This document shows positions 50,126 through 61,724 of a DNA stretch of 64,000 nt, piece after piece (position 1 is the stretch's first letter; every line of letters starts with the position of its first letter). The position numbers and the translations under genes were made by a program. Origin of the DNA: Paludisphaera soli (GTDB taxonomy: Bacteria; Planctomycetota; Planctomycetia; Isosphaerales; Isosphaeraceae); the NCBI RefSeq assembly GCF_011064595.1, contig NZ_JAALJI010000016.1, positions 107,149 to 171,148 of the forward strand. The letters are read 5' to 3'. The notes beneath the pieces were generated by a model. The model ran no database searches. It saw nothing but the letters and a program-made list of their open reading frames with translations, and was not told where the DNA came from.

Positions 50126-51058
50126 TCAGGAAGGATCGTCGCGGCGGGGCTCGACCTGGACCACCTGGCGTCGGTTGTCGACGGCGAGGTTGATCGACCC
50201 GACGACGACCGGGAGCGACATCCGGCGGGCCTTCTCGACCGCGAGGAGAGACCGCTGGTAACGCGCCGTCGCCTTGTCCATGTTCCGCTGGTAGGCCGCC
50301 CAGGTCTTCGGGCTGACGCTCCCCTGCCAGGTCATCGCCAGGGCCTGCTCCCAGACGGCGACGTGCAGCCAATCCAGGGCCGCCCTCGACGCCAGCAGCT
50401 CCAGCACCGGTCCGGAGCCGGGCGGGGCGAGCTGCCGCCGCATCTGCTCCATCCTCGCCTCGACGGCGGCGCGGTGCGGCTTCGACCCGGCCGCGCCCAG
50501 CAGCAGCCCGAGGATGTTGCTCTCGGCCACCTCCTCGGGATCGGCCCCGCCCTTCTCGATCGCCTCCTGGAGGGACGCCGAAAGCCTCTCCCGGGCGATC
50601 CCGTCGCCCCGGCGGGCCAGCGTGACCAGCTCGCGGACCTTCGACCTGGCGGCTCCCACGACCTCGACCGACTTGAACTCCGGCATGTCCCGCCTCCTTC
50701 GCCACCCGCCCCGGTCGTGCCTTCGATACCCCAACGCTTCGAGCGCCCCGGAGATCGCGGCGTCGACTTCCGCCCCGAACCCGGCCAGCTCCCGCCCGAA
50801 GGCCTCCAGGCTCCGCATCGACTCGCGGGCGGATCTCCACGCGGCCTCCTCGGCCTTCGCCGCCTCCCTCGCCTTGCGGCGGTCCTCGGCCCTCGCCCTC
50901 GCCAGCGCCTTCCGGTCCTCGGCGATCAGGCGCGCGACCGCGAGGAAGTGCCCCGCGAGCGGCCCGGACGTCGGGCCCAGGCTGCGGCTGGTCACGCGGC
51001 CCCCGCGCCTCACGCTCTCGTACAGGTACATCCGGCCGGCGATCCGTTTGAAGTGCAT
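50126..51058 (-). CDS. Accessory protein with 'YLYESVRRGGRV' N-terminal motif
   Basis: 310 residues. The N-terminal strand pair RMYLYESVRRGGRVTSRSLG resembles a motif shared by many planctomycete and cyanobacterial accessory proteins and some transposases. A long charged helix (ARARAEDRRKAREAAKAEEA) follows and then a helical bundle. No catalytic signature. First gene of the cassette 49185-51058. A link to mobile DNA is possible but not shown. Confidence 0.62.
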   Translation of the reverse strand: MHFKRIAGRMYLYESVRRGGRVTSRSLGPTSGPLAGHFLAVARLIAEDRKALARARAEDRRKAREAAKAEEAAWRSARESMRSLEAFGRELAGFGAEVDAAISGALEALGYRRHDRGGWRRRRDMPEFKSVEVVGAARSKVRELVTLARRGDGIARERLSASLQEAIEKGGADPEEVAESNILGLLLGAAGSKPHRAAVEARMEQMRRQLAPPGSGPVLELLASRAALDWLHVAVWEQALAMTWQGSVSPKTWAAYQRNMDKATARYQRSLLAVEKARRMSLPVVVGSINLAVDNRRQVVQVEPRRDDPS

Positions 51059-51675
51059 CGTCCCGCCCCGAAAATCCTTAACCTACACGTCGGCTGTACT
51101 CGACCTGCCCCGCGCGTCGAGCGTCAGGTTCCGAGATGCTGGGATCTGTCGGATTCAACAGATCCCCCAACACCCGCTCCCATTTTAGACGGCCTCGATT
51201 GTCTCAGGATTCGGCTTGGCGCGGCGTCGGGGCGGCCTTCTTCGATTCGGCCCCGGCGATCGTGCGTCCCGAAACCCGACGTGGCCGGCCGGTTCCGGGA
51301 TTTTGATTCCGAGACGGGATACGGCCATGCGTTCGAGACCCTCGGCACGATCAGCTGGACGCGTCCCAATAACGGGCGTTTTTGAGACACTCAATTGGCC
51401 GCACGACAAGGCGATTATCTGGGGTGTAGAGAGGCAGGGACGAATCGGCCTGCCCCGGACGGCCCGGGGCGGGAAACATACGCATAGGTCGTACAAGGAC
51501 TTCGGCGACCGGCCCTCTTCCGGGTGGACCGTCGGTGTCGCGTGGAATATGCTCGGCTGCTGGTCGAGCTGCGGTGTCTCCATCATCGCTGGTCCAGGGT
51601 CTCCCGTCCGAATATGGCTCCACACCTCTCCATGACGGGTCGGAACGGGATCGACGCCGCCACGGCTCGCGTCGC
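51059..51675. other. Intergenic region before selB
   Basis: 617 bases with no convincing gene. It contains a degenerate copy of the palindromic repeat at 51363-51388 and must hold the selB promoter, but no good -10/-35 pair stands out. selB itself lacks a strong ribosome site. Confidence 0.4.
51363..51388. repeat. Palindromic repeat, degenerate copy 1
   Basis: Right arm CGTTTTTGAGAC is perfect; left arm GTCCCAATAACG differs from the consensus GTCTCAAAAACG at two positions. CACGAC follows at 51402-51407, in inverted orientation to the GTCGTG beside copy 2 at 58053-58058. Confidence 0.6.
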
Positions 51676-53652
51676 ATGACCCCGCCTCGGCCTCGACAGC
51701 GAGTGCTCGGGACGGCCGGGCATATCGACCACGGCAAGACCGCCTTGGTGCGTGCGCTCACCGGGATCGACGCGGACCGGCTCCCCGAAGAGAAGCGGCG
51801 GAGGATCACCATCGACCTGGGTTTCTCGTTCCTGGACGTGGACGGGACCCATCTCGCCCTGATCGACGTACCCGGCCACGAGCGGTTCGTGCGGAACATG
51901 CTCGCCGGGGCCACCGGTCTGGATCTGGCCATGTTGGTGGTGGCGGCCGACGACTCGGTGATGCCCCAGACGCGCGAGCACCTGGATATCCTGCGCCTGC
52001 TCGGGCTCTCGGGGGGCCTGGTCGCCCTGACCAAGTGCGATCTGGCGGCGCCGGAATGGATCGCCCTGGTCGAGGACGAGATCCGCGACCTCGCCCGCGG
52101 GAGCTTCCTCGAAGGATCTCCGATCGTCCGCACCTCGGCCGCGACCGGCATGGGGATCGAGGAATTGAGGGCCCGGCTCGGCGCGCTGGCCGCGACGAGC
52201 CCGGAACGGCCCGATCCGGGGCCGTTCCGGATGGCGATCGACAGGGCTTTCACCGTCGCCGGCCACGGCACCGTCGTGACCGGCACGGTCGCCTCGGGGA
52301 TCGTTCGGGTCGGCGACGACCTGGAATGGCTACCCGAGATGCGTGCGGTCCGCGTCCGCGGGTTGCAGCAGCACGGTCGGTCGGTCGAACGCCTCGGCCG
52401 CGGGACCCGAGCGGCGATCAATCTGGTCGGGGTCCACCACGCCGAGGTGCATCGAGGGCAGGAACTCGGAGCGCCCGGGTACCTCCGGCCGACGCGGCGG
52501 CTGTCGGCGGAGGTCCGCGTCTCGCCCGACGCCCTCCGGCCGCTCGCGAGCCGATCCCGGCATCGACTCCACCTGGGGACGGCCCAGGTCCTGGCGACGA
52601 TCGCGCTGCTGGACTCCGGGGCGATCGAACCCGGGGGCGTCGGCCTCGCGCAGTTGTCGCTGGCCGAGCCCGTCGCGGCGGTCTACGGCGAGCCGTTCGT
52701 GCTCCGCGCGGAGAGCCCGCCGGCGACGGTCGGGGGCGGCCGGGTCTTGCAGCCCACGGCCCGGCGAGTCCGCAGGCGCGACGCGGCCGAGGTCGCCCGC
52801 ATCGGGAGGATGGGGGATCCCGGCCCGATGGGACGGGCGGCAGTCGCCCTGATGGCCACGGGCCTGGACCCCTGGACGACGAGGGACCTGGTCAGGGAGG
52901 CGGGGTTGAACGAGTCCGAGGCCCCTGCGGCGATCGAGAGCCTCGCCGCCGGCGGCATCCTGGTCGAATTGCCCCTCGGCCCCCGCCGTTCGACCCGGGT
53001 CCCCGTCGAGCGCGTCGCCGACCTGGAGTCGCGGATCCTCCGCGTCGTGGGCCGGCTGCACGAGGCGCGACCGCGGCTGTCGACCGTCCGCCGGCCCCAC
53101 ATCGCGTCCGCCCTCCCCGACATCGGCAACGAGGCCCTGATCGCGGCCGTGATCGACCGTCTGCTCTCACGGGGCGAGCTCGTCGGCGACGGCCTGGCCG
53201 TCGCCCTACGCGACTTCAGGCCCCGCCTCAGCCACGCCGAGGGCAAGTTGAAAGAGACGATCGCGGCGGCCTATCGGGCCGGATGGTTGGCCCCGCCGGA
53301 TGTCGCCGAGCTGACCTCGCGGGCCGGATCTCGGGCGTCGCTCGTGCCCGAACTCCTCGCCTTGCTGGTGGACGAAGGACGCTTGGTCGAGCTGAGCCAC
53401 GGGCTCTATCTCGATCGCGACGCCGAGGCGGAGCTGCGCCGCCGGACCGCGGAACGCCTCGCCGATGGATCGTCCGTCGTCATGGCGGAATTCCGCGACC
53501 TTCTCGGCGTCACCCGAAGGCACGCCGTCCCATACGGCGAGCATCTCGACCGCATCGGATTGACGCGGCGCGAGGGCGATGCACGCCGGCTGGCTTCGGC
53601 CTTCGGCGACGGCGGGACCGCGGAGGCGCCGACGCGAATTCCTAGTCCCTAG
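51676..53652 (+). CDS. selB: Selenocysteine-specific elongation factor SelB
   Basis: 658 residues. It carries Sec-tRNA(Sec) to UGA codons marked by a SECIS hairpin. The GTPase motifs are GHIDHGKT (15-22), DVPGHE (64-69) and TKCD (119-122), the last a SelB-type variant of NKxD. Three beta-barrel domains follow, and the C-terminal 230 residues form the winged-helix domains that bind the SECIS RNA. Switch I reads RRRITIDLGF where most SelBs have RGxTIDLGF; the Gly is replaced. The start at 51676 is placed 11 residues before the G1 region, as in the family. Followed by selA after 27 bases. Confidence 0.96.
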   Translation: MTPPRPRQRVLGTAGHIDHGKTALVRALTGIDADRLPEEKRRRITIDLGFSFLDVDGTHLALIDVPGHERFVRNMLAGATGLDLAMLVVAADDSVMPQTREHLDILRLLGLSGGLVALTKCDLAAPEWIALVEDEIRDLARGSFLEGSPIVRTSAATGMGIEELRARLGALAATSPERPDPGPFRMAIDRAFTVAGHGTVVTGTVASGIVRVGDDLEWLPEMRAVRVRGLQQHGRSVERLGRGTRAAINLVGVHHAEVHRGQELGAPGYLRPTRRLSAEVRVSPDALRPLASRSRHRLHLGTAQVLATIALLDSGAIEPGGVGLAQLSLAEPVAAVYGEPFVLRAESPPATVGGGRVLQPTARRVRRRDAAEVARIGRMGDPGPMGRAAVALMATGLDPWTTRDLVREAGLNESEAPAAIESLAAGGILVELPLGPRRSTRVPVERVADLESRILRVVGRLHEARPRLSTVRRPHIASALPDIGNEALIAAVIDRLLSRGELVGDGLAVALRDFRPRLSHAEGKLKETIAAAYRAGWLAPPDVAELTSRAGSRASLVPELLALLVDEGRLVELSHGLYLDRDAEAELRRRTAERLADGSSVVMAEFRDLLGVTRRHAVPYGEHLDRIGLTRREGDARRLASAFGDGGTAEAPTRIPSP

Positions 53653-53679: not shown

Positions 53680-55074
53680 TTGCACGACAACCCGCTGCGC
53701 AGCCTGCCTCCCGTGAACGCCATCCTGGCCGACGCGGGGCTGGCGGGATTGGTGTCCGATCTCGGCCGCGAGACCGTCCTGGCCGCCGTCAGGGCCTCCC
53801 TCGAGGAGGCCCGCGCGGCGGGGCTGCGGGGCGATCCCGTCGATCCGCACCCCGGACGCCTGGCCAGGCGGGCGAGGGAGCTGCTCGAGGCCGACAGGTC
53901 GACGTTGCGTCCGGTGATCAATGCGACGGGGATCCTGATCCATACCGGGCTGGGACGGGCGCCGCTGGCGGACGAGGCGATCGAGGCCGTCGCCGCGGTG
54001 GCGCGGCAATACTGCAGCCTCGAAATCGACCTCGATTCCGGCGAGCGGGGGCGGAGGACCGACGATGTCGAAGGGCTGCTCCGCCGGCTGACGGGAGCCG
54101 AGGCGGCGACGGTGGTCAACAACAACGCCGCCGCCACGATCCTGTCGCTGCGGGCGTTGGCCGCGGGCCGGGAGGTCGTGGTCTCTCGCGGGCAGCTGGT
54201 CGAAATCGGCGGGAGTTTCCGACTTCCGGACGTTTCCGAGGCCTCGGGGGCGCGGCTCCGCGAGGTCGGCACGACAAACAGAACCAGGCTGTCCGACTAC
54301 GAGCGGGCGATCGGCCCCGACACCGCCGCCCTGATGCGCATCCACACCAGCAACTACCGCATCGTCGGGTTCAGCGAATCGGTCGGCATCGCCGAACTGG
54401 CGGCGCTGGGCCGTTCGCGCGGGCTGTGGACGATCGACGACATCGGCTCCGGAGCCCTGGGCCCGGGCCGACCGCCGGTCGACGGCGACGATCCGACCGC
54501 CGCCGAGGCCTTGGCCGCGGGGGCCGACGTCGTGCTCTTCTCGGGCGACAAGCTCCTGGGCGGCCCGCAATGCGGGATCATGGTCGGTCGCCGGGCCGCG
54601 ATCGGCCGCGTGACCTCCGACCCGCTGATGCGGGCCCTGCGCGTGGACAAGATGACGCTCGCCGCGCTCGGGGCCACGCTCCGATTGGCGCTCGCCCCCG
54701 CGCGGGCGGCCCGCAGGATCCCGCTCTGGACCTTCCTGACCGTCCCCCGGGAGGCGCTCCGCGAGCGGGCCGAGCGGCTCGCTTCGTCGCTCCGTCGCGA
54801 CGCCGGATTGGAGGCCGACCCGGTCGAGGAGAAGGCCTACCTCGGCGGCGGCAGCACGCCGTTCGAGCCGATCGCGTCGATGGCCGTGCGCATCGGCCCG
54901 CCCTTCCCCAAGGGGATCGAGTCCGAGGGCGCCTTCGCCCGCGCCCTCAGGGCGGCCGATCCCCCGGTCGTCGGCCGTGTGCGGGGCGGTGCCGTCCTGC
55001 TCGACCTGCGGGCCGTGACCCCGGAGCAGGACGACGCGATCGAGGCCGTCGTGCGGCGGATCGCGTCGGCGTAG
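53680..55074 (+). CDS. selA: L-seryl-tRNA(Sec) selenium transferase
   Basis: 464 residues, PLP enzyme that converts Ser-tRNA(Sec) to Sec-tRNA(Sec) with selenophosphate. The N-terminal helical domain starts LRSLPPVNAILADAG; the PLP lysine is Lys291 in FSGDKLLGGPQCGI; TTVVNNNAAATIL, DDIGSGALG and TNRTRLSDYERAI (with HTSNYRIVGF) are family motifs. A TTG start behind GGGAA is used; no ATG is near. It forms an operon with selB. The tRNA-Sec gene follows on the opposite strand. Confidence 0.96.
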   Translation: MHDNPLRSLPPVNAILADAGLAGLVSDLGRETVLAAVRASLEEARAAGLRGDPVDPHPGRLARRARELLEADRSTLRPVINATGILIHTGLGRAPLADEAIEAVAAVARQYCSLEIDLDSGERGRRTDDVEGLLRRLTGAEAATVVNNNAAATILSLRALAAGREVVVSRGQLVEIGGSFRLPDVSEASGARLREVGTTNRTRLSDYERAIGPDTAALMRIHTSNYRIVGFSESVGIAELAALGRSRGLWTIDDIGSGALGPGRPPVDGDDPTAAEALAAGADVVLFSGDKLLGGPQCGIMVGRRAAIGRVTSDPLMRALRVDKMTLAALGATLRLALAPARAARRIPLWTFLTVPREALRERAERLASSLRRDAGLEADPVEEKAYLGGGSTPFEPIASMAVRIGPPFPKGIESEGAFARALRAADPPVVGRVRGGAVLLDLRAVTPEQDDAIEAVVRRIASA

Positions 55075-55105: not shown

Positions 55106-55204
55106 TGGCGGGAGCGTATGGGAATCGAACCCACCAGCGATCGCTCTCGCGACCGCTCTCTGGTTTTGAAGACCAGGCCGGGCACCAGCCTCGGACACGC
55201 CCCC
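55106..55204 (-). tRNA. selC: Selenocysteine tRNA, anticodon TCA
   Basis: 99 bases with encoded CCA. The acceptor stem has 8 pairs (GGGGGCGT with ACGCTCCC, one G-T), anticodon stem CTGGT/ACCAG with loop CTTCAAA (anticodon TCA), a 9-pair variable arm AGCGGTCGC/GCGATCGCT with one wobble closed by GAGA, and a five-pair T stem around TTCGATT. These are the hallmarks of bacterial tRNA-Sec. It lies antisense between selA and selD; an open frame reading through it on the plus strand is an artefact. Confidence 0.95.
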
Positions 55205-55377: not shown

Positions 55378-56457
55378 ATGTCCACCCCGGAACCCGTGCG
55401 ACTGACCCGATACGCCAGGCGGGCGGGCTGCGCGGCCAAGCATCCTCAGGATTTCCTCCTGCCGCTCCTCGGCGGGCTGCCCGCCGTCACCGATCCGAAC
55501 GTCCTCGTCGGGAGCGCGACGGCCGACGACGCGGCGGTCTACAAGCTGTCCGACGACCTGGCCCTGGTCATGACGACCGACTTCTTCACCCCGATCGTCG
55601 ACCGGCCGTACGACTTCGGCGTCATCGCCGCCGCCAACGCGCTCAGCGACGTCTACGCGATGAACGGCGTGCCGTTCGCCGCTCTGAGCATCGTCGGTTT
55701 TCCCGACGCGACCCTGACGCCGGAGGTCCTGGCGGAGATCTTGCAGGGCGCCGCCGCGAAGGCCGGCGAGGCGGGGGTCTCGATCATCGGAGGGCACACG
55801 ATCAAGTCCGAGGAGCCGATCTTCGGCTTGGCGGTGGTCGGACGCGTGCACCCCGACGGGGTCCTCACCAACGCGGGCGCCCGGCCGGGCGACGCCCTGG
55901 TGCTCACGAAGCCGCTGGGGTCGGGCATCATCACGACGGCGGCCAAACGGGGAGAAGACCACCTGGGGGCCATCGACGAGGCGATCACGGTGATGTCGGC
56001 CCTCAACCGGGACGCCTCCCGAATCCTGGCCGGGGCGGGCGCCCGGGCCTTGACCGACGTCACGGGTTTCGGCCTGCTCGGGCACCTCCGGAACATCGTC
56101 GCCGCCAGCGACGTCTCGGCGACGATCTGGAGCGATCGGGTCCCCGTCATGGCCGCGGCGCGGGAATACGCCCGCGTCGGCGTCGTCCCTGGGGGGACCC
56201 ATGCCAACCGCCGCTCCCTGGCGGGCGTCGTGCGCTTCGGGCCGGACGTCGACGACGCGGAACAGCTGCTGCTCTGCGACGCCCAGACCTCGGGCGGCCT
56301 CCTGGGAGTCCTTCCCGCCGATCGCGCCGACGAGGCGGTGCGTGACCTCCGACGGGCGGGGACTCGCGCCTCCGCCGAGATCGGTCGCATCGAGGCCGAG
56401 GGGGCCGGCGGCATCCGCGTGTCCCGAGGCGCATTCGGCGGCGATGTCGGGTCATGA
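55378..56457 (+). CDS. selD: Selenide, water dikinase (selenophosphate synthase)
   Basis: 359 residues. It makes selenophosphate from selenide and ATP for SelA. The catalytic Cys18 and Lys21 in AGCAAKHPQDF correspond to Cys17 and Lys20 of E. coli SelD; this is the Cys form, not Sec. DDAAVYKLSDD, MTTDFFTPIVDRPYDFGVIA, ANALSDVYAMNG and GGHTIKSEEPIFGLAV are the AIR-synthase-fold motifs that bind magnesium and ATP; DVTGFGLLGHL and CDAQTSGGLL complete the family. Start at 55378 behind GAGGA. Together with selA, selB and selC it completes the Sec pathway. Confidence 0.97.
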   Translation: MSTPEPVRLTRYARRAGCAAKHPQDFLLPLLGGLPAVTDPNVLVGSATADDAAVYKLSDDLALVMTTDFFTPIVDRPYDFGVIAAANALSDVYAMNGVPFAALSIVGFPDATLTPEVLAEILQGAAAKAGEAGVSIIGGHTIKSEEPIFGLAVVGRVHPDGVLTNAGARPGDALVLTKPLGSGIITTAAKRGEDHLGAIDEAITVMSALNRDASRILAGAGARALTDVTGFGLLGHLRNIVAASDVSATIWSDRVPVMAAAREYARVGVVPGGTHANRRSLAGVVRFGPDVDDAEQLLLCDAQTSGGLLGVLPADRADEAVRDLRRAGTRASAEIGRIEAEGAGGIRVSRGAFGGDVGS

Positions 56458-56628
56458 CTGCATCGGTCGCCGTGCGGATCGCTCGTGCGAACGGGGCGAC
56501 GTCCAAAAAATGGCGCGGTCCCGTTCGCGACCATCCTTTACGCTATACCGCGATCCGGCATCGCCGTGCACGAAAGGTCGATGACGAGAGATCGCGGTGT
56601 TCCCGGCTCGTCTAGGAGGAATCCTCGC

Positions 56629-57891
56629 ATGAGACGCGTCTTCGCGGGCCCGGTAATCTTGGCGCTCAGCTGGTCGCTGCTGTCGGCCGAGGTCGGGGGA
56701 CAGGACGGGCCGGCGACGCCGGCCGAGCAGTACAAGGCACTCGTCAAGGAATCCCAGTCGCGATACGACGCGGCCCAGAAGGAAGCGTTCAAGTCGGTGC
56801 CGAAAGGCGGCGTCCTGCCCGACGACGAGCGGACGGCGCTGGTCGGGCTCGCCTACCGGTCCAAGTACGAGCAGGCCCCGAAGCTCGTGGGACTCGCCGA
56901 GCGATATCCGCGGGACCCGGTCGCCCTGGACGCCTTAACCGAGGCGGTCTGGCAGGTGAACACCACCCCCTACCCGGTCGAGATGGTCGGGCGGGACCCG
57001 GCGCGCCCAAAGGCGTTCGAACTCCTCAGGCGGGACCATATCGGCAGCGAGAAGCTCGGCCCCCTCTGCGAGCGGATTTCCTACGGATTCGGCGCCGAAT
57101 ACGAGCCCTTCCTGCGAGACGTCCTGGAGAAGAACCCCCACAAGGAGGTCCGGGCCCAGGCTTGCCTCGCCCTGGCCCATTTCCTCGGCAACCGGTCGCT
57201 GAAGCTCGACCTGGTCCTAGGAGACCCGAAGCAGGCCCGGGAGTTCGCGGACCTCTACGGCGAGGAGTACCTCGAACGGCTGCGACGCCAGGACCGCGTC
57301 AAGGCCGCGGAGGAAGCCGAGGCCCTCCTCGTCCGCGCCATGCGGGACTATGGCGGCGACGTGAAGCTGCCCGACGGCGAGACCGTCGCCGAGAAGGCCG
57401 AGCCGGAGCTCTTCGGCCTCCGCCACCTGGCCGTCGGGAAGACGGCCCCGGACATCGAGGGGCAGGACCAGGACGGCGTGAGGTTCAAGCTCAGCGACTA
57501 TCGCGGCAAGGTCGTGCTGATCGACTTCTGGAGCGAGGTCTGACTCACCTGACGGGCCCAATGGCCCCACGAGCGGTCGCTCGTGCAGACGCTGAAGGAC
57601 AGGCCTTTCGCCCTCATCGGCGTGAACGTCGGGGGCAACGCGAAGAACCTCAAGGACGTGATGACGAAGGAGGACGTGACCTGGCGGACGTTCGCCGACA
57701 TGGGCGACGCCGGTCAGGGGGCCATCGCAGCCCGCTGGAACCTGACGAGCACGCCGACGCTCTACGTCCTCGACGCCCGGGGAGTGATTCGACACAAGTG
57801 GCTGGGCGCCCCCGGGGCCGAGGCCCTCGACGCGGCCCTGGAGACGTTGATCCGCGAGGCCGAGGCGGACTCCGAGAAAGCCCCGAAGTGA
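56629..57891 (+). CDS. Probable UxxU selenoprotein: secreted thioredoxin-fold redoxin with two in-frame TGA
   Basis: 420 residues if TGA at 57541-57543 and 57550-57552 are read as selenocysteine (U305, U308). Start behind an ideal TAGGAGGA site; signal peptide VILALSWSLLSAEVGGQ. Residues 30-270 are a helical domain of unknown role. Residues 275-410 are a TlpA/AhpC-type redoxin: VGKTAPDIEGQDQDGVRFKL, KVVLIDFW, then SEV-U-L-T-U, PHERSLVQTL, FALIGVNVGGN, the cis-Pro loop STPTLYVLD and GVIRHKWLG. In Cys homologues the CxxC comes three residues after DFW, exactly where U305 and U308 fall. The frame is uninterrupted otherwise, and coding character continues after the TGAs to the final TGA. A SECIS-like hairpin follows. 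It lies 171 bases after selD. The alternative is a pseudogene, but two TGAs at both active-site cysteines make that unlikely. Confidence 0.88.
57568..57585 (+). promoter_or_regulatory. Bacterial SECIS-like hairpin
   Basis: CACGAGC and GCTCGTG form a perfect 7-bp stem with loop GGTC. The apical loop begins 22 bases after the second TGA and 31 after the first, inside the 16-37 base window known for bacterial SECIS elements, and has G at the first two loop positions. A second, smaller stem GGGCC/GGCCC (57554-57567, loop CAAT) lies just before it. One hairpin may serve both codons. Confidence 0.7.
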
Positions 57892-58100: not shown

Positions 58101-58255
58101 GGCCGCATTGCTCGGCCGGGGGCGACCGCGGACTGGTGTCCCGACCCCAGGCGGACGGCGTATCCCCTCTCATGAATGGGGGCTAATATGGGTTGGTGAG
58201 CCCCGGGGGTTCGGGGCTGCCCTCCGCGTCGTCCTTTGCCGTGCCGCCGGAACCG

Positions 58256-58828
58256 ATGAACGACGTCACCCGCATCCTCTCGGCCATCGAGCACGGCGAC
58301 CCGCATGCGGCCGACAGGCTCCTGCCGCTGGTCTATGACGAGCTCCGCAAGCTGGCGGCCCGGCGGCTGGCCCACGAGAAGCCGGGCCAGACCCTCCAGG
58401 CCACGGCCCTCGTGCACGACGCCTACCTGCGGCTCGTCGGCGCCGACGACCCCGGCTGGGATAGCCGCGGCCACTTCTTCGCCGCCGCGGCCGAGGCGAT
58501 GCGCCGCATCCTCGTCGACAACGCCCGCCGCAAGCGCACCACCAAGCACGGCGGGGGCCATCGCCGTCGCGACCTCGACGAGGTGGAGATCGCCGCCGGA
58601 GAGCCAACCGACGACCTGCTGGCCCTGGACGAGGCCCTGGCCCGGCTGGCGGCCGAGGACCCGCAGAAGGCCGAGCTGGTCAAGCTCCGCTACTTCGCCG
58701 GCCTGACGATCGAGGAAGCCGCCCAGGCCCTCGGCATCTCCGCCGCGACGGCCAAGCGATACTGGGCTTACGCGCGGGCGTGGCTGTTCCGCGCCGTCGA
58801 GGCTGCTGACCCGCCCATGTCCCCCTGA
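58256..58828 (+). CDS. ECF-like RNA polymerase sigma factor (sig70_X6 type)
   Basis: 190 residues. Typical planctomycete sequence: [40 protein letters not shown] (region 2) and [20 protein letters not shown] with [16 protein letters not shown] (region 4 HTH). The start at 58256 matches the usual MNDVTRIL beginning; an upstream TTG frame adds an odd extension. No anti-sigma gene; instead a membrane Ser/Thr kinase starts 88 bases downstream, the arrangement known from planctomycetes where the kinase is thought to control the sigma factor. Confidence 0.94.
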
Positions 58829-58845
58829 GGAATCTCCCGGATCTC

Positions 58846-58878
58846 GTGAGCCGGTCGGCGCCCGGTTCTCGCATTGCC
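58846..58878 (+). repeat. 33-base intergenic element, copy 1
   Basis: GTGAGCCGGTCGG, four to five variable bases, then CGGTTCTCGCATTGCC; the same arrangement recurs at 61845-61877. It lies 38 bases before the kinase start. It may be a promoter recognised by the neighbouring sigma factor or a duplicated leader. Confidence 0.6.
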
Positions 58879-58916
58879 CTGAGGGCCGACCGGATCACTG
58901 ACGCGGGGGATGCGCG

Positions 58917-61724
58917 ATGGGGGCGAAGCTGCCGAGTGTGGAGACCGTCTTCGGCGAGGCGATGGAGATCGCCGGGCCGGCCGAGCGGGCCGCCTTCCTC
59001 GACCGGGCCTGCGGCGGGGATCAGGCCCTGCGCCGCCAGGTCGAGTCGCTGCTGGATGCCCACACCCGGGCCGGCGGCTTCCTCGAATCCCCCGCCGCGA
59101 CGCCGACGATCACGCGCGACGCGAGTCCGACTGACGACGGGCCGGGCGGCGTCATCGGCCCCTACCGGCTCCTGGAGGAGATCGGCGAGGGGGGCATGGG
59201 CGTCGTCTACATGGCCGAGCAGACGCGCCCGGTCCGCCGCCGGGTGGCCTTGAAGGTCATCAAGCCGGGGATGGACAGCAAGCAGGTGGTGGCGCGGTTC
59301 GAGGCCGAGCGGCAGGCGCTGGCCCTGATGGACCACCCCAACATCGCCAAGGTCCACGACGGCGGCGCCACCGGATCGGGACGGCCCTACTTCGTCATGG
59401 AGCTGGTCCGGGGCCTGCCGATCACCGACTACTGCGACCGCGAGGGGCTCACCGTCCCGGAGCGGCTGGAGCTCTTCGTGCTGGTGTGCCGGGCGGTGCA
59501 GCACGCGCACCAGAAGGGCGTCATCCACCGCGACCTGAAGCCCTCGAATGTCCTGGTCACCGTCGTCGACGGCGTGCCGACGCCGAAGGTCATCGACTTC
59601 GGCGTGGCCAAGGCCACCGGCGCCAGCCTGACCGACCGGTCGCTGTTCACCGGCTTCCACCAGCTGATCGGCACGCCGCTGTACATGAGCCCCGAGCAGG
59701 CGGACCTGTCCTCGGCCGACGTGGACACCCGCAGCGACATCTACGCCCTGGGCGTCCTGCTCTACGAGCTGCTGACCGGGAGCACGCCGTTCGACCGGGA
59801 GACCTTCGCGAAAACGGCGTTCGACGAGATGCGGCGGATGATCCGCGAGGACGAGCCGCCGACGCCGAGCACGCGGCTAGGCTCGCTGGGGGAGAGGCTA
59901 TCTACCGTCTCGTCCAGGCGCGGCTCGGACCCGCGGCGTCTGAACCGAGCGGTGCGGGGGGAGCTGGACTGGATCGCGATGAAGGCGCTGGAGAAGGACC
60001 GCCGGCGGCGGTACGAGACGGCCAACGACTTCGCCGCCGACGTGATGCGCTATCTCACCGACCGGCCGGTGGAGGCGTGCCCGCCGTCGGCCCGGTATCG
60101 CCTCACGAAGTACGCGCGCCGCAACCGCACGGCGCTGGCGACCGGGGCGGTCGTCGCCGTGGCGCTCGCGACGGGCTCCGCCGTGAGCGCCTGGCAGGCC
60201 GTCAAGGCGACCCGGGCCGAGCGCCGGGCCGAGGCACGCTTCGAACAGGCCCGGCGCGTGGTCGACGACATGTACACCCAGGTCGCCGAGCGCTGGCTCG
60301 GCCAGAACGGCGGTCTCGCCCCGATCCAGCGCGAATTCCTGGAGAAGGCGCTGGCCTTCTACGAGCCGTTCGCCGAGGAGCGGCACGACGACCCGGACGT
60401 GCAGTTCGAGGCCGTCCGGGCCCGCGGCCGGGTGGGCGTGATGCGGCGCCTGCTCGGCAAGCTCGACCAGTCCGAGGACCTGATCCGCCGGTCCGTCGAC
60501 GACCTCGACGACCTGGCCAACCGGTTCCCCGATCGGGCCGATTACCGCCAGGAACTCGCGCTGAAGCTGGGCGACGTCGCCGCGCTGCGGGCGGACCGGG
60601 GCCAGGCCGCCGAGGCCGAGCCCTCGATGAAGCGATCCGTCGCGGTGATGGAAGCCGTCGTGGCACAGCACCCGAAGGACCAGCAGTACCTCTGCAATCT
60701 TGCCAGGGTCCTCGGCTGGCAGGGGAACCTCTTCGAGAGACAGAAACGTTATGCGGAAGCCGAGATCGTCCTCCGAAGGAGCCGGGACCAGTTCGAGCGG
60801 CACATCGCGGAGGGGCCGCACGGGGCGAACTGCCGCTTGGAACTCGCCAGGGTCGAGATGACCCTCGGGCTGATGCTGATGCACATCGGCCGCCTCCCGG
60901 AGGCCGAAGCCGCCCTGCGGCGCTCGATCGTCCCGTCGCGGGCGATCCTGGCCGAGAGCCCGACCCACCCGGTGGCACGCGAGCAGCTGGCCAAGTCGCT
61001 GATCAACCTCGCCATCATCGAGGGGGCCCCGAAGGGCGCGGTCGAGGACCTCCGGCAGGCCGAAGGGCTGCTCGGTGGCCTGGTGGAGGAGTCCGGCGTC
61101 CTCGACCGTCGATGGGCGCTCGCCGCCTGCCGGGAGTATCTCTTCAAGGACCTCGTCGAAGCGGGGCGATTCGAGGAGGCCGAGGAGGTCGCACACCGCT
61201 GGGCGGAGGTGTCCGAGAAGCTGGTCGCCGACCAGCCGGCCATCCCCCACTTCCGCGACTCCCTGGGCCGCTTGCATCATCGGTTGGCATTCTACTACGC
61301 CTCGCCGCCCGAGCCGCGCCTCCGCGACCCGTCGAAGGCCATGACGCACGCCCGCAGGTCGGTGGACCTCCTGCCGCAGTCGGGGGCGGCCCGGCAGTCG
61401 CTGGCCTGGGCCCATTACCGCGCGGGCGACTGGACGGCCTGCGTCGAGAGCGGATTGAAGGCGACGGAGTTGCACGAGGGCGACGACTGTGGTGCCTGGT
61501 TCTTCCTTGCCATGGCCTACCTCCACCTCGGCGACCAGGCCCGTGCCCACACCTATTACGAGCGAGCCGTCAGGGGGCTGGCGGATTTCGAAGGGCGGGT
61601 CGCCCGGCCCGCGAGCCCTGCGATGACCTACGACCCCGATCCTGCGGCCATGCGGAGGGTCCGCGACGAAGCCGCCTCCCTCCTGCTCGGGACGCCTCCC
61701 GAAGCGAAACCGATCCGCAGGTGA
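58917..61724 (+). CDS. Membrane Ser/Thr protein kinase with C-terminal TPR-like region
   Basis: 935 residues. Kinase domain about 80-385: GEGGMGVVY (90-98), Lys113 in [10 protein letters not shown]204-R-D206-L-K-P-S-N, D227-F-G and [10 protein letters not shown]; all catalytic residues are present, so it should be active. A single membrane helix ([20 protein letters not shown]) near residue 405 is followed by a long helical repeat region with TPR spacing ([40 protein letters not shown]) that would face the periplasm. Start behind GGGGGA. Linked to the ECF sigma factor upstream. Confidence 0.95.

Follow-up and report, generated by a model that had tools for sequence, protein, structure and literature searches.

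Can a bacterium read two UGA codons nine bases apart as selenocysteine (Sec) with the help of one RNA hairpin? The question is raised by a gene of Paludisphaera soli (Planctomycetota), located within a stretch of 64,000 nucleotides (nt) of contig NZ_JAALJI010000016.1, here called the window. The frame of this gene is interrupted by two TGA codons at the places of the two cysteines of a CxxC redox motif, and an earlier reading of the letters without database searches (the sequence-only reading) had proposed a UxxU redoxin, U standing for Sec. The analyses presented here support its selenoprotein interpretation. Decoding of both UGAs as Sec, taken alone, is regarded as very probable; somewhat less firmly, though still as the probable explanation, we propose that SelB, tRNA-Sec and one 3′ hairpin place both Sec residues in a protein that is probably exported and probably acts as a diselenide/diselenol oxidoreductase.

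A redoxin gene with two in-frame UGA codons

The predicted parts of the gene are as follows.
56614..56619, + strand: AGGAGG ribosome-binding site, recognized from sequence, 9 nt upstream of the ATG
56629..57891, + strand: UxxU redoxin gene, 420 codons, two in-frame TGAs read through, ordinary TGA stop at 57889-57891
56629..56706, + strand: likely signal sequence, residues 1 to ~26, with a basic start, then a hydrophobic run and AEVGGQD
56707..57390, + strand: N-terminal all-helical (solenoid-like) domain, residues ~27-254, from AlphaFold models
57430..57876, + strand: ResA/TlpA-type thioredoxin-fold domain, residues ~268-416
57541..57543, + strand: UGA codon 1, residue 305, CxxC position one
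57550..57552, + strand: UGA codon 2, residue 308, CxxC position two
57748..57759, + strand: cis-Pro loop S-T-P-T, residues 374-377, with Thr 375 just before cis-Pro 376

Before the terminal TGA the only in-frame stops are those at 57541-57543 (codon 305) and 57550-57552 (codon 308), as the sequence-only reading had stated, and the active site reads DFW-SEV-U-L-T-U-RAQWPHERS inside the thioredoxin-fold domain. The STPT loop that it had pointed out does follow in frame downstream, and the ribosome site that it had called ideal is the AGGAGG listed above. The read-through protein matched AhpC-TSA (PF00578) with 68.6 bits and Redoxin (PF08534) with 62.6 bits against gathering cut-offs of 26 and 26.6, both matches spanning both TGAs, and the best matches of the catalytic domain in sequence and fold were ResA/TlpA/DsbE. 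The fold is ResA-like, and the protein is not filed as ResA (NCBIfam PRK03147 / NF002854), for which its 60.2 bits lie under the curated cut-off of 170; the scores for WAxxUGC_long (NF041054; 26.7 bits) and redoxin_TUGYCR (NF053656; 22.5 bits) are likewise under their curated cut-offs of 300 and 100. The terminal TGA was also considered as a third Sec codon, which was rejected: UxxU relatives terminate there with any of TAA, TAG or TGA, which marks this codon as an ordinary stop.

The signal-like N-terminus includes a helix (residues 7-20) modelled at low confidence, comparable N-termini occur in most of the homologues shown, and the product is likely to be exported. The extra N-terminal helical domain already suspected from the letters is modelled as all-helical at high confidence, the AlphaFold predicted local distance difference test score (pLDDT) being 92.3 for the whole protein and 93.9 for the helical domain alone. 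A weak trace of HEAT_2 was detected in it (19.8 bits, below the Pfam cut-off of 27.7), and no clear structural relative of it was found in the comparison with solved structures.

Homologues were counted in the best 80 of 490 genome-contig stretches and in the loci of relatives. The former were found via protein patterns upstream of the hairpin described below and ranked by whole-protein likeness; the latter were found with the whole protein, only L131 having been fetched via the hairpin pattern, and its gene is also in the protein-based list. Once second copies of counted genes (L118, L126, L128, L129 and L130) and rows of less than 110 bits (the two 'AA' rows of L109/L129 being those listed) had been removed, 123 rows were left. 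By their motif codons, 19 are UxxU (UU; TGA twice), 63 UxxC (UC; TGA, then TGC or TGT) and 41 CxxC (CC; TGC or TGT twice), and the TGA of relatives sits at exactly the same alignment columns as the Cys of others. The placement of the two TGAs at the CxxC position, three residues past DFW, was thereby confirmed, and the search proposed in the sequence-only reading for homologues with Cys or Sec at these positions yielded all three types. The UxxU genes are spread over 15 genomes, that of P. soli included, with four in G060 and two in G061; a sixteenth genome, G381, has the UxxU pattern at the DNA level only.

Furthermore, a search of 5.8 billion database proteins, in which 7998 candidates were scored, gave 1653 matches, and the best 120 were listed, including the window's own. 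Among these, 117 end three residues past DFW, which is exactly at the first TGA, and two of the three others (P0006 and P0095) apparently continue in a shifted frame, as judged from the letters. Past the TGAs, over 17 codons counted in the UU rows, the difference at codon positions 1, 2 and 3 amounts to 0.252, 0.174 and 0.463.

Several relatives deserve mention in their own right. Two UxxU genes stand in tandem, and one genome, G060, has four such genes (loci L010:280-4062, L017 and L026). A large UxxC selenoprotein family of the Planctomycetota, typically reading DFWGxWUGPCRAMYPHERS (L024, L027, L028, L030-L044 and others), has the same frozen hairpin as the UxxU genes and reaches three or four copies in some genomes (G124, G128, G326, G442). 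The P. soli genome also has a redoxin relative (L004; C127:16137-16901) whose matched stretch contains a TGA and a TAG; these stops could not be placed on the redox motif, and the gene is possibly a decayed paralogue.

The hairpin downstream of the UGA codons

Bacterial Sec insertion depends in the present proposal on a selenocysteine insertion sequence (SECIS), for which one candidate was recognized.
57568..57585, + strand: predicted SECIS hairpin CACGAGC-GGTC-GCTCGTG, loop at 57575-57578, 31 nt past UGA 1 and 22 nt past UGA 2

The DNA that recurs at this fixed place 3′ of the TGAs is CACGAGCGGTCGCTCGT. The 16-nt core of the hairpin occurs unchanged in 17 of the 19 UU rows, in 56 of the 63 UC rows and in none of the 41 CC rows, where the fewest mismatches are two; the remaining two UU rows have one core change each with pairing retained, and the exact core is found in 73 of the 82 Sec-type genes overall. 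Fisher values treat related rows as independent and are descriptive only. The peptide HERSL can be coded in 864 ways, and the UU rows use CAC (18/19), GAG (18/19), CGG, TCG and CTC (19/19 each); conserved residues next to HERSL vary in codon, unlike these near-fixed ones. The pattern TGA-N6-TGH-N16-core was found in 65 of 392 Planctomycetota genomes and its reversed control in 0. The second codon is TGA in four of the 65 (G000, G176, G367 and G381), and most of the 65 are of the UxxC type.

The loop is GGUC (4 nt), with a stem of 7 base pairs (bp) in the window and of 6-7 bp in all 19 UU rows; the energy is -10.5 kcal/mol in the window and -8.5 to -10.5 kcal/mol across the same 19 rows. The published bacterial SECIS model has an apical loop of 3-9 nt with G in its first two positions, an upper stem of 4-16 bp, a distance of 16-37 nt from UGA to loop and a minimum free energy of -7.5 kcal/mol or lower (PMC13188914), and the window hairpin falls within every one of these bounds for both UGAs. 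Since both UGAs lie within the 16-37 nt spacing, SelB bound to the hairpin would deliver Sec-tRNA twice in succession, and one SECIS likely serves the two codons. An extra hairpin between UGA 2 and the SECIS (~57554-57567) is not retained in all UU rows and was not called a part.

Seven UxxC genes have no such hairpin (L055, two in L074, two in L084, L086 and L088), and single folds give other stems there; a second SECIS type may serve the UxxC family.

Machinery, active site and competing explanations

The genes required for Sec synthesis and insertion are encoded just upstream of the redoxin gene.
51676..53652, + strand: selB, Sec-specific elongation factor (TIGR00475, 345.9 bits, cut-off 242.25)
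53680..55074, + strand: selA, Sec synthase (TIGR00474, 508.6 bits, cut-off 267.9)
55106..55204, - strand: selC, tRNA-Sec with anticodon TCA (ARAGORN; Rfam RF01852, 74.3 bits at 55110-55204)
55378..56457, + strand: selD, selenophosphate synthase (TIGR00476, 372.8 bits, cut-off 125), likely start ATG 55378

The selB open reading frame opens at 51535, its likely start being ATG 51676; SelD is the Cys form, not the Sec form, and 171 nt separate the end of selD from the redoxin gene. The genome that carries the window thus has a complete Sec set (SelA, SelB, SelD and tRNA-Sec). Neither this neighbouring cluster nor the conserved hairpin had been named in the sequence-only reading, and both strengthen it. 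SelB was above its cut-off in all 15 genomes with UxxU loci compared with two of 14 named control genomes, and SelA in all 17 genome entries scanned for it (two of them, G176 and G367, have hits identical to those of G065 and G072 and apparently represent the same genomes) as well as in the P. soli genome. The Sec trait is patchy among relatives, as SelA passes in 32 of 59 (P. soli included) and in two of six genomes within the genus. Within the genus, the P. soli genome alone matches the UxxU protein closely enough to hold such a gene: its E-value is 5.4e-282, compared with 8.8e-62 for the best of the 58 other relatives.

The tRNA-Sec gene lies antisense between selA and selD in a sel cluster otherwise on one strand. 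Upstream of selB, a 310-residue open reading frame at 50126-51058 (- strand) has no Pfam match, and downstream of the redoxin gene, at 58193-61724, an ECF-type sigma factor is followed by a serine/threonine kinase with repeats, both read as such from their translations alone.

The active site of the UxxU proteins differs from that of their relatives at several places. A Trp before the motif occurs in none of the 19 UU rows, in 60 of the 63 UC rows and in 37 of the 41 CC rows, while a Trp seven residues past the first Sec is present in all UU rows and absent from all UC and CC rows. Between the two Sec residues GP is replaced mostly by LT (Leu in 14 and Thr in 15 of the 19). The residue before the cis-Pro, which could be counted in the 51 rows of alignment A2, is Thr in 16/16 UU rows, W/F/Y in 30/30 UC rows and W/F in 5/5 CC rows; this residue tunes the redox properties of thioredoxin-fold proteins. 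We interpret the changes that accompany the second Sec as a tuning of the site to a diselenide.

A tree was built from 106 rows that retained at least 330 residues once trimmed, with duplicates removed, 17 of the 19 UU rows included and the two motif columns masked. In it the UU rows form a single clade (SH-aLRT 98) whose sister is the UxxC gene L027 (SH-aLRT 95). The method was a quick one without bootstrap, rooted at the midpoint. UxxC members elsewhere in the tree have the same hairpin, and the second UGA therefore appears to have arisen where a SECIS was already in range. We infer that UxxU arose from an ancestor of the UxxC type in which this hairpin already stood at 31 nt; a second UGA at 22 nt could have used the existing hairpin, with no new RNA element needed. 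The gene L022, from a bin labelled Verrucomicrobia, is placed next to L020 inside this mostly planctomycete clade, through either gene transfer or a binning error.

A number of results weigh against this interpretation or limit it. The 16-mer is not specific alone: with up to two mismatches it has 30 matches in its own genome and the reversed control 43, and the exact 16-mer occurs in eight of 59 relatives compared with four for the control, two of the eight (G002 and G017) lacking a correctly spaced TGA. Folded as a whole, the 60 nt from UGA 1 onward (-22.3 kcal/mol, z -1.5) are only mildly more stable than shuffled sequences, 16 of 200 of which were as stable; RNAalifold predicted little but the small hairpin for the UU set and nothing for the mixed UC set; seven of the 63 UC rows are without the frozen hairpin; and the hairpin hardly varies, leaving no covariation to test. 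The direction from UxxC to UxxU is not proven, because the root is a midpoint root only, UxxC and CxxC are intermixed in the tree (10 and 9 changes) and the group of UU and L027 has three CxxC rows branching beside it. Sequence searches with the window's SelA, SelB and SelD (tblastn) gave no match in the flanks of the other 17 UU loci (at most 8 kb, many shorter), and linkage to sel genes as a general rule was accordingly rejected. No recurrent neighbour gene indicating a substrate emerged among the families common to at least four UU loci, which comprise the gene itself, antisense or shadow frames and one kinase-like family; neighbour genes were discarded as a substrate clue. Lastly, the second UGA could be decoded poorly, and Sec incorporation, the diselenide and the function are predictions, that of the diselenide being drawn from the chemistry known of SelL.

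The most probable of the alternatives accepts Sec at both UGAs and departs from the proposal in the function alone: the pair may bind a metal or act as a peroxidase instead of serving as a ResA-like disulfide exchanger. We consider this unlikely, as ResA/TlpA/DsbE, the best sequence and fold matches, have their CxxC at the aligned position, and the two-residue spacing of the pair is in keeping with disulfide exchange. Under the preferred reading, the pair would cycle between Se-Se and two selenols beyond the cytoplasmic membrane and would act on disulfide (or otherwise oxidised) partners that the helical domain would hold.

It is also conceivable that only one UGA is decoded efficiently, so that mostly a 304-residue helical product and a minority of full-length protein are made and the UGA pair forms a selenium-dependent switch. 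Reading two UGAs with a single SECIS should be costly, and the modelling of the helical domain alone at high pLDDT suggests that the stopped product could be stable. The stretch past the TGAs nevertheless retains the third-position change typical of coding sequence, the active site changes together with the second Sec, for which a simple switch would have no use, and a single UGA, as in UxxC genes, would suffice; a switch is accordingly judged quite improbable.

Less credible still is the reading of TGA as another amino acid through a changed code or a suppressor tRNA. The frame would be open under any code in which TGA is a residue, but TGA terminates other genes of the window (among them selD and the two downstream genes read as an ECF sigma factor and a kinase) as well as the redoxin gene itself, the inner TGAs align with the Cys of homologues, and tRNA-Sec with its TCA anticodon, SelA, SelB and SelD are all present; a changed code was rejected on these grounds. 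A pseudogene or sequencing error, that is, a CxxC gene with two stop mutations, has only the stops themselves in its favour and was dismissed as extremely unlikely, because 15 genomes hold 19 genes with this same pair of TGAs (which also makes the TGA errors raised in the sequence-only reading very unlikely), the 117 truncated database relatives are cut at the same residue and the hairpin is frozen.

Relation to known selenoproteins and significance

UxxU selenoproteins are an already known kind, represented by SelL and by PF00578 proteins with UxxC or UxxU. SelL has two Sec two residues apart and a single SECIS (PMC3316567); it forms a diselenide bond and was said to be restricted to aquatic organisms, namely fish, invertebrates and marine bacteria, and the reductant of such a low-potential diselenide bond was posed as an open matter (PMC2397514). 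The P. soli protein resembles SelL, which is known here by description, in its UxxU within a modelled thioredoxin fold and in its one hairpin, and is unlike it in its likely export, its helical N-terminal part and its ResA-like domain; its NCBIfam matches include no SelL family. The 2007 SelL paper reportedly describes a thioredoxin-like fold for SelL.

The second known group, a Prx-like thiol:disulfide oxidoreductase family (PF00578) with UxxC/UxxU, has one or two Sec and WP_010940744.1 as its reference (PMC13188914, PMC9312934). Compared by description, the present protein shares with it PF00578 and the same two motifs within its family; the family tables in the available parts of these papers mention no N-terminal domain, planctomycete or SECIS common to two UGAs (PMC13188914, PMC9312934). 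Unlike ResA/TlpA/DsbE (CcmG), the gene has UGA for both Cys codons, no Trp before the motif and an extra helical domain. The UxxC relatives, mostly Planctomycetota, have the same catalytic domain and, in the proportion of rows given above, an identical SECIS core at the same place; they differ in having one Sec, mostly GP between the motif positions, and the Trp before the motif and aromatic residue before the cis-Pro already noted.

Ocean metagenomes have yielded UxxU sequences (PMC2398784), and UxxC Prx-like proteins are on record for the Sargasso Sea (PMC1088965); planctomycete selenoproteins have been reported without the present one in the main-text passages available (PMC4807772). A literature search for UxxU proteins of Planctomycetota or of the present clade found no description, subscription journals being poorly covered. 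As far as these searches reach, the planctomycete UxxU clade, its frozen single SECIS and the UxxU-specific active site are new.

Diselenide proteins are rare, SelL being the example named in the available literature (PMC2397514). The present clade has at least 19 genes, spread over 15 genomes, and is accompanied by UxxC and CxxC relatives whose architecture is related; its one SECIS keeps a constant position. It permits direct tests of one bacterial SECIS for two UGAs, of the role of the second selenium and of the tuning residues. It also exposes an annotation gap: 117 of the best 120 database proteins end at the first UGA and so lack most of the catalytic domain. Tentatively, and with rather less than even confidence, we suggest that these genes form a dedicated diselenide enzyme lineage, in which a frozen SECIS would decode two UGAs nine bases apart and the active site would have been rebuilt at four places to give an Se-Se catalyst outside the cytoplasm; in P. 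soli, where the gene stands directly behind selD, it may be the main client of the Sec machinery.
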